NCBI GenBank assembly: GCA_903905655.1
Contig: CAIVHG010000071.1
Coordinates: forward strand, 1 to 49,292
Reading direction: 5' to 3'
Source: an uncultured beta proteobacterium
GTDB taxonomy: Bacteria > Pseudomonadota > Gammaproteobacteria > Burkholderiales > SG8-41
Length of the DNA: 49,292 bases
Within the stretch, counting starts at the first letter, position 1. Each line of letters begins with the position of its first letter. The notes under the pieces are model-generated. The model did no database searches. It was given only the letters and a program-made list of their open reading frames with translations, and was not told the origin of the DNA. Positions 29,137-41,879 of the stretch are shown here, in pieces. A program made the translations under genes and the position numbers.

Positions 29137-30069
29137 ATGCATGAGATGACCGGCCTGCTCGAAGCCTATGGGCTGGCCTTTGTCTTTGTAAACGTATTCC
29201 TGGTGCAGGCCGGAGCGCCGGTGCCCGCAGTGCCGGCCCTGATGGTGGCGGGCGCCCTCAGCAAGGGCGGCGCGATCTCCATGCCCGCCATCATTGCAGT
29301 CGCTGTCATCGCTTCGCTGTTGGCGGACTCGCTCTGGTATGAATTAGGTCGCAGGTACGGCACGCGTGTGCTGCGGCTGCTTTGCCGCATGTCGATAGCG
29401 CCGGACACATGCGCGCGCCAGACCGAAGACCGGTTCCTGCGCTGGGGTGCACCATCGCTGGTATTCGCCAAGTTCATCCCGGGCTTCGCTCTCGTGGCGC
29501 CGCCGCTTGCGGGCGCGCTGAGGGTGGGGTTTGCATCGTTTCTCTTTTATAGCGCGATCAGCGCAGCGCTATGGGCATTGCTCGCCGTCGGCGCGGGCAT
29601 GCTGTTCGCGCGGCAGGTCGACTGGGCGCTGGCAACTCTCGAGCAGATGGGCATGGATTCCCTGCTGGTGCTTGCCGTTGGGCTGACGCTATTCATCGCC
29701 TATAAATTGTGGGCGCGCAACCGGCTGATCAGGCACCTGCGCATGACGCGTATATCGGCCGCTGAACTTAATCGTATGACGGAGCAGGGGCTGGCGCCGG
29801 TCGTCGTCGACGTGCGGTCGAAGGGTGCGCGCGCCTTCGATCCGCGCCGCATCCCAGGCGCGCTGCTCGCCGACATCGAAAGCATGGACCAGGTGCTGGC
29901 GCAGCTGCCGCGGAATCGCGACATCATTTTGTACTGTACGTGACCCAACGAAGCCAGCGCGGCGCGTGTCGCCCGCCTGTTGATGGACCGCGGTGTGCAG
30001 AAGGTGCGCCCGCTCGAGGGTGGGCTGGATGCGTGGGTGGCCGCCGGCTATCAGACCGAGCCGTCCTGA
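29137..30069 (+). CDS. DedA-family membrane protein fused to a rhodanese domain, with in-frame TGA at 29941
   Basis: Residues 1-190 form a DedA-type membrane domain (FVFVNVFLVQAGAPVPAVPA, then FAKFIPGFALVAPPLAGAL). Residues ~205-310 form a rhodanese domain (VVVDVRSKGA, then IILYCT). Codon 269 is TGA, two codons after the canonical Cys267 in the active-site loop. The frame continues with PNEASAARVARLLMDRGVQK and LEGGLDAWVAAGYQTEPS to a TGA stop at 30067. In homologues as I know them the loop reads YCTCPNEAS, so TGA replaces the second Cys. This could be a selenocysteine codon, a nonsense mutation or a sequence error. If TGA stops translation, the product keeps the membrane domain but loses the loop and last helices. 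The following hydrolase gene is 81 bp away. Confidence 0.72.
29959..29976 (+). promoter_or_regulatory. SECIS-like hairpin after the in-frame TGA
   Basis: GCGGCG and CGCC(C)GC pair around loop CGTGT, with one bulged C on the 3' side. The stem begins 15 bases after the TGA and the loop lies 22-26 bases after it, within the range for bacterial SECIS elements. A G is at loop position 2. In GC-rich coding DNA such hairpins arise easily by chance, so this is weak support on its own. Confidence 0.25.
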
Positions 30070-41394: not shown

Positions 41395-41400
41395 TATAAT
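41395..41400 (+). promoter_or_regulatory. TATAAT -10 of the cold-shock gene
   Basis: A perfect TATAAT preceded by GTG. A TTGTGC at 41375 is only 14 bp away, so the -35 is uncertain. It would give a 5' leader of about 138 bases. Confidence 0.5.
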
Positions 41401-41478
41401 GCATTTCGCAGGATCGTCAAGCAGTGATAATTGCCAGTCCGTCAGATGCCGCGCAAGCGGTACCTTCTCAGATCATCG

Positions 41479-41542
41479 TTATTCTCCTTCTTGAAGTTCT
41501 CGCACCCGGGCATATGCCCATTTTTAATTTTTCAGGAATAAG
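41479..41542 (+). promoter_or_regulatory. Terminator-like hairpin and possible anti-Shine-Dalgarno in the cold-shock leader
   Basis: GGGCATATGCCC (41508-41519) is a perfect palindrome followed at once by ATTTTTAATTTTT, resembling an intrinsic terminator only 25 bases before the start codon. Upstream, TTATTCTCCT (41479-41488) can pair with the ribosome site AGGAATAA (41534-41541), with a two-base bulge. Both suggest post-transcriptional control by temperature. No folding was calculated. Confidence 0.4.
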
Positions 41543-41544
41543 AC

Positions 41545-41751
41545 ATGAGTAACGGTACTGTTAAGTGGTTCAACGACGCCAAGGGTTTTGGATTCATCAC
41601 TCCCGATGACGGCGGCAAAGATCTGTTCGCGCATTTCTCGGCGATTCAGGGCAACGGCTTCAAAAGCCTGCGCGAAAACCAAAAAGTTTCTTACGACGTG
41701 ACCGCCGGTCCCAAGGGCGATCAGGCCACCAACATCCGGCCGATTGACTAA
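41545..41751 (+). CDS. Cold-shock protein, CspA family
   Basis: A 68-residue single cold-shock domain: [20 protein letters not shown] carries RNP1 (KGFGFI), and DLFAHFSAI carries RNP2 (LFAHF). It binds single-stranded RNA or DNA and melts secondary structure at low temperature. The ribosome site AGGAATAA precedes the ATG. A strong intrinsic terminator follows, so it is monocistronic. Which paralogue (CspA, C, D or E) cannot be told from sequence alone. Confidence 0.95.
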
Positions 41752-41768
41752 GATCAGCTGGAATTAAG

Positions 41769-41796
41769 AAAAGCCCGGGCGACCGGGCTTTTTTTT
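41769..41796 (+). terminator. Intrinsic terminator of the cold-shock gene
   Basis: AAGCCCGG-GCGA-CCGGGCTT forms a perfect 8-bp stem with a 4-base loop, followed by a run of T. It starts about 20 bp after the stop codon. This is the clearest intrinsic terminator in the window. Confidence 0.92.
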
Positions 41797-41879
41797 CGCC
41801 CGCAGCGCGCGCGGCGCCGCAGGCGGGATTTGATACACTCTGCATAGAGATCTGTAGCGCGGTTTTAAGGGGATAAGTG

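Follow-up and report, generated by a model that had tools for sequence, protein, structure and literature searches.

A predicted selenoprotein joining a DedA/VTT membrane domain to a CxU rhodanese in uncultured Burkholderiales

The window analysed here, a stretch of 49,292 nucleotides from an uncultured beta proteobacterium, contains a gene on its forward strand (29137-30069) that, with a probability we put at roughly 95% on comparative sequence evidence, encodes a selenoprotein in which the UGA codon at 29941-29943 is read as selenocysteine (Sec) at position 269. The predicted product is a membrane protein of 310 residues, in which the N-terminal half is a DedA/VTT domain and the C-terminal half is a rhodanese with the active-site loop C267-x-U269-P. 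It is very probably made at full length where standard annotation would cut it at a stop after residue 268, and it is apparently a conserved and so far unreported membrane-anchored variant of the CxU rhodanese-type selenoproteins. What appears to be new is the DedA-fused architecture, the CxU rhodanese loop being already known. The gene brings selenium into the DedA/VTT family, in which no role has been assigned to the fusions with rhodanese.

The Gene, Its Reading Frame and Its Domains

Translated from the ATG at 29137, the frame is interrupted once, by the TGA of codon 269 in the loop context LYC-T-U-PNEAS; 41 more codons follow, and then a terminating TGA (codon 311, 30067-30069). An earlier note, made from the letters of the DNA, had described a TGA inside an otherwise intact DedA-rhodanese frame and rhodanese-like sequence up to the second TGA, and the domain searches bear out both statements. 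The VTT domain (Pfam PF09335) spans residues 29-155 (29221-29601) at 46.8 bits against a cut-off of 33.9, and the rhodanese domain (PF00581) spans residues 207-302 (29755-30042) at 46.7 bits against a gathering cut-off of 22.2, so that the match runs straight across the TGA; this domain is shared by 66/66 homologues, as is the invariant Cys267 (29935-29937) that opens the active-site loop. An AlphaFold model of the 310-residue product, built with the alignment of the 66 homologues, reached a pLDDT of 87.9 and a pTM of 0.81, and in it the chain beyond the TGA contributes two helices with a strand between them to the rhodanese fold. Among the matches listed in a Foldseek comparison with the PDB, all were rhodaneses and none covered the DedA half.

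A competing explanation is that the TGA is an ordinary nonsense mutation, so that the protein would stop behind its DedA domain and the remainder would be a decaying pseudogene. TGA is indeed a normal stop in this host, where it ends 7 of the 20 large window ORFs sampled, and true remnants of the gene do exist in relatives, as described below. However, the frame downstream of the TGA is open, completes the rhodanese fold and is under purifying selection like that on the upstream rhodanese part: from codon +12 to the end, pN is 0.25 and pS 0.58, compared with 0.34 and 0.58 upstream, and the excess of third-position changes seen in the upstream rhodanese part is present downstream as well. Across the host's family the frames continue for 39-57 codons after the Sec position, one of them cut by a contig end, and close with TGA, TAA or TAG. 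The decay in relatives that the earlier note had named as a sign against its reading is therefore not seen, and since the TGA also recurs in every family copy and in two further families, we regard a pseudogene as very improbable. An altered genetic code, which was also considered, is unnecessary, since TGA ends other genes of the window and a Sec system is present.

Recurrence of the UGA Codon among Relatives

The host's GTDB family was sampled as 74 genomes, 49 of which carry an orthologue of the DedA-rhodanese gene, and the in-frame TGA is present in all 49, including one (G037) in which a frameshift splits the gene into two pieces and the TGA lies in the second. A search at the level of the order found the TGA form outside the family in four genomes of a second family (f6) and in one genome of a third (f13); the remaining matches run through the site without a stop, with TGC or TGT in those that were read. 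In a scan of named genomes, TGA forms were found in groundwater Betaproteobacteria MAGs, and Cys forms were numerous, among them those of Dyella, Acidobacteria, Nitrospira and other taxa. Taken over non-redundant genes from the three families, codon 269 is TGA in 36, as against TGC or TGT in 78 homologues. The earlier note had proposed that the TGA stands in for a Cys of homologues, and the alignment places the exchange at precisely this codon, which is the UGA-at-Cys pattern of a bacterial selenoprotein. The collected Cys homologues are about 35-55% identical and have CxC where the Sec forms have CxU.

A misreading of TGC or TGT as TGA during sequencing or assembly would produce the same interruption in a single genome, but the codon is found in dozens of separate assemblies from several families, always with the same 20-nucleotide SECIS sequence alongside, and this recurrence in independent assemblies makes the probability of an error negligible.

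In a protein tree calculated with the Sec column masked, the Sec forms cluster by family; the distribution of Sec and Cys on this tree would call for two or three changes, a single origin also being compatible with it. The absence of a stop from the Cys forms bears on a further alternative, in which incomplete decoding of the UGA yields two functional products, the complete selenoprotein and a short protein consisting of the DedA part. Sec insertion is generally less than fully efficient, and the short form would hold a complete VTT domain. Nevertheless, in the Cys forms the fusion alone suffices, and the truncation point falls within the rhodanese fold, so we consider a functional dual product distinctly unlikely.

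Several irregular copies were also encountered. One relative that lacks an intact gene (G025) retains a remnant of the rhodanese half (L242, G025:C35:33000-35500, reverse strand) in which the TGA is kept, the DedA half is missing and the hairpin sequence has drifted. Another (G042) has a second copy of the C-terminal fragment (L243, around position 1469, G042:C294) with the exact SECIS 20-mer and no TGA, which is a duplicated fragment. In G064 and the related G069 the gene has an extra in-frame TAG, a pseudogene or an error; in G064 it falls at codon 67 (L114), which otherwise encodes the invariant Trp67. One genome (G187) at first taken for a TGA form without sel genes was rejected, its TGA being the terminal stop and its site having Cys.

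The SECIS Hairpin

Decoding of the UGA would depend on SelB binding an mRNA hairpin at 29957-29976 and delivering Sec-tRNA(Sec) to the codon at 29941, a mechanism supported by comparative evidence. The evidence for the hairpin lies in the codons that form it. Genes with TGA spell codons +5 to +11 as AGC GCG GCG CGT GTC GCC CGC and hardly ever use a synonymous alternative, whereas the Cys forms use many different codons for the same residues, so that the freeze is restricted to the TGA forms. Over codons +4 to +11 the synonymous entropy averages 0.21 bits, compared with 1.37 bits for the remaining 61 conserved residues that have at least four codons (p=5e-6 by the Mann-Whitney test). The 20-mer AGCGCGGCGCGTGTCGCCCG (29956-29975) occurs free of mismatches in 49/49 gene-bearing family genomes and in one further genome (G038), on a contig-edge fragment, and in no other genome of the family; its reversed sequence, used as a control, gave zero matches in the family genomes.

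The hairpin has the shape GCG-(bulged C)-GGCG-[CGUGU]-CGCC-CGC, that is, four base pairs, a bulge and three base pairs beneath an apical loop at 29965-29969, with a folding energy of -9.2 kcal/mol and the loop 21 nt downstream of the UGA. The bacterial SECIS model calls for a G within the first two bases of the loop with G or U coming next, a spacing of 16-37 nt and a minimum free energy of at most -7.5 (PMC13188914), and the hairpin agrees with it throughout, its loop CGUGU having G in second place and then U. Among the stem variants, L112 keeps two lower pairs as G-U, and L023 and L107 lose the outermost pair only. It is important to stress that the folding energy is ordinary for a sequence so rich in GC (z about -0.6 to -0.8) and that an alternative fold is equally stable (-9.3 versus -9.2), so the case for the hairpin rests on conservation and not on energy. 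The earlier note had placed a SECIS-compatible hairpin at 29959-29976, which was correct as to its existence and its compatibility, the extent being slightly larger. Searched with Rfam at the gathering threshold, the window yielded no SECIS. Formate dehydrogenase and SelD selenoprotein genes from the same lineages have hairpins at a similar distance, with loops (AGUCU and CGUUG) that, judged by eye, are comparable in being small and containing GU.

The Sec Machinery of the Host and Its Relatives

The genome search that the earlier note had proposed as a check found the full set of Sec genes. In the host genome, which is 70% complete, contig C16 carries in a row selA (595.8 bits), selB (423 bits), a thioredoxin-reductase-like gene and a tRNA-Sec with the anticodon TCA (72.4 bits against a cut-off of 47), and selD is found on another contig (L175, G000:C74:21552-22481, reverse strand). 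The host selD itself has an in-frame TGA, in the motif HGGGUGCK, and a SECIS-like hairpin with the loop CGUUG, so SelD is predicted to be a selenoprotein in its own right. The note's remark that the window lacks sel genes holds in that neither tRNA-Sec nor any further RNA element for Sec insertion was found there; the genes lie elsewhere in the genome.

All gene-bearing family genomes have selB or tRNA-Sec, with the single exception of G052, a TGA genome 72% complete in which neither a clear selB nor tRNA-Sec was found, probably because the sequence is missing. Outside the family, tRNA-Sec is present in 5/5 TGA genomes, as compared with selB in 12/42 Cys-form genomes, a contrast (Fisher p=0.004) that is indicative only, since related genomes are not independent. 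One genome (G171) has two copies each of selB and tRNA-Sec, on contigs C103 and C331.

The thioredoxin-reductase-like flavoprotein gene that selB and tRNA-Sec flank in the host (L009:8232-9149, G000 contig C16) scores 244.7 bits to TIGR01292, below the cut-off of 343. Of the f1 and f6 genomes that were read, 11 with the selenoprotein gene and 5 gene-less ones have a selB-linked gene of this kind, as against 0/12 Cys-form genomes with selB; the G214 contig, which is short, did not show it. Because it occurs in gene-less genomes too, it tracks the lineage as much as the selenoprotein, and its product can be put forward as a candidate reductase for Sec proteins.

A classical formate dehydrogenase selenoprotein gene with TGA was detected in only about a dozen of the 74 family genomes and was not found in the incomplete genome of the host. 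The present gene may therefore account in part for the retention of the Sec machinery in these genomes.

Relation to Known Selenoproteins and Fusions

The earlier note knew of no DedA form with a C-x-U loop. As regards the loop, this has to be qualified: NF041203 (rhodanese_LYCAU), described as "rhodanese-like domain-containing protein form 3", is a CxU selenoprotein (PMC13188914) and has in common with the window protein a rhodanese with a UGA-encoded Cys-x-Sec active-site loop. The DedA-fused form, on the other hand, is apparently unreported. The NF041203 model covers a rhodanese alone, over 126 positions, whereas the window protein has an N-terminal DedA membrane domain besides. It could be argued that the window protein is merely a member of NF041203 that has become fused to DedA, given that this is its best NCBIfam match and that the two share the L-Y-C-x-U loop. 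Yet the score is 76.5 bits where the curated cut-off is 115, that cut-off is reached in 0/74 family genomes, the host included, and the nearest relatives in sequence searches are Cys DedA-rhodanese fusions, which fall in the same tree as the Sec forms. We therefore give this alternative little probability.

Such fusions are known, namely Pseudomonas aeruginosa PA1209 (PMC12893004) and fusions of COG0586 (PMC10127716), neither paper mentioning Sec in them. They have the domain architecture of the window protein; the Sec forms, which come from three families within a single order, differ in having a SECIS and Sec for the second Cys. A looser likeness is to E. coli YgaP, in which a membrane segment accompanies a rhodanese domain that was among the Foldseek matches listed, and which at full length is not known to have a DedA domain or Sec. 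TsoB (NF045694) is listed as a rhodanese/DsbD fusion-like selenoprotein (PMC13188914), with two Sec residues in UxxxxU and a DsbD-type partner in contrast to the DedA/VTT partner seen here. The 2026 review of these proteins does not mention DedA or VTT (PMC13188914), and our literature search found no paper joining selenoprotein, rhodanese and DedA, so that within the papers covered the family appears to be unlisted.

Possible Function of the Protein

Functional proposals are based on motif, conservation and neighbouring genes. Cys267, Cys or Sec at 269, Pro270, Asp225, Cys83 and Cys92 are invariant in the homologue alignment, the last two (29383-29385 and 29410-29412; 66/66 homologues) lying inside the VTT domain. 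A run of positive charges behind the final membrane helix of the prediction would place the rhodanese in the cytosol. There, Cys267 and Sec269 may form a selenenylsulfide/selenol pair for persulfide or thiol-redox chemistry, in which Sec would be more reactive than the Cys that homologues have in its place; a redox or sulfur-transfer role of the rhodanese site is, on these grounds, the reading that we moderately favour.

As for the DedA half, four residues are reported to be essential for undecaprenyl-phosphate flipping, namely Glu39 and Asp51 at the tip of the first re-entrant helix and Arg130 and Arg136 at that of the second (PMC10127716); their equivalents were located by aligning the homologues with an ordinary DedA protein that the host also encodes. 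The Glu39 equivalent (column 23) is acidic in 3/24 Sec forms versus 32/42 Cys forms and the Asp51 equivalent (column 32) is non-acidic in 64/66, these two assignments being less sure because the alignment is gapped around the first re-entrant helix. The first Arg position is Lys (K112) in 65/66 and the second (column 118) is Arg in 0/66. The acidic and Arg residues of a COG0586-type DedA flippase are accordingly not retained as a set, and the DedA half has probably ceased to flip undecaprenyl-phosphate in the standard, proton-driven way. It may instead hold the site at the membrane, where it would supply a membrane-associated substrate, or it may exchange electrons via the C83/C92 pair; any such role for the DedA part is put forward tentatively. 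A fuller scheme, a selenium-dependent relay at the membrane in which the cytosolic Cys267/Sec269 would swap electrons or sulfane sulfur with a C83/C92 dithiol, is speculative and on balance unlikely. In it the DedA part would have lost its proton-driven flipping of lipids and the VTT-fold protein would work as a redox enzyme, with reduction possibly by the thioredoxin-reductase-like protein of the sel operon. The natural split into Sec and Cys forms, together with the nearly invariant SECIS, makes both recoding and function open to experiment.

Genes next to the relatives' copies resemble, as named by eye, pirin, YceI, DoxX, a nitroreductase, an aromatic-dioxygenase-like protein, an RND efflux system and LysR, which suggests a connection with redox or electrophile stress. 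The neighbours in the host window are different, comprising an alpha/beta hydrolase, a putative aminopeptidase and a DUF4197 protein. Elsewhere in the window, positions 41400-41797 match the cspA thermoregulator RNA family at 78.5 bits, just above its cut-off of 78.
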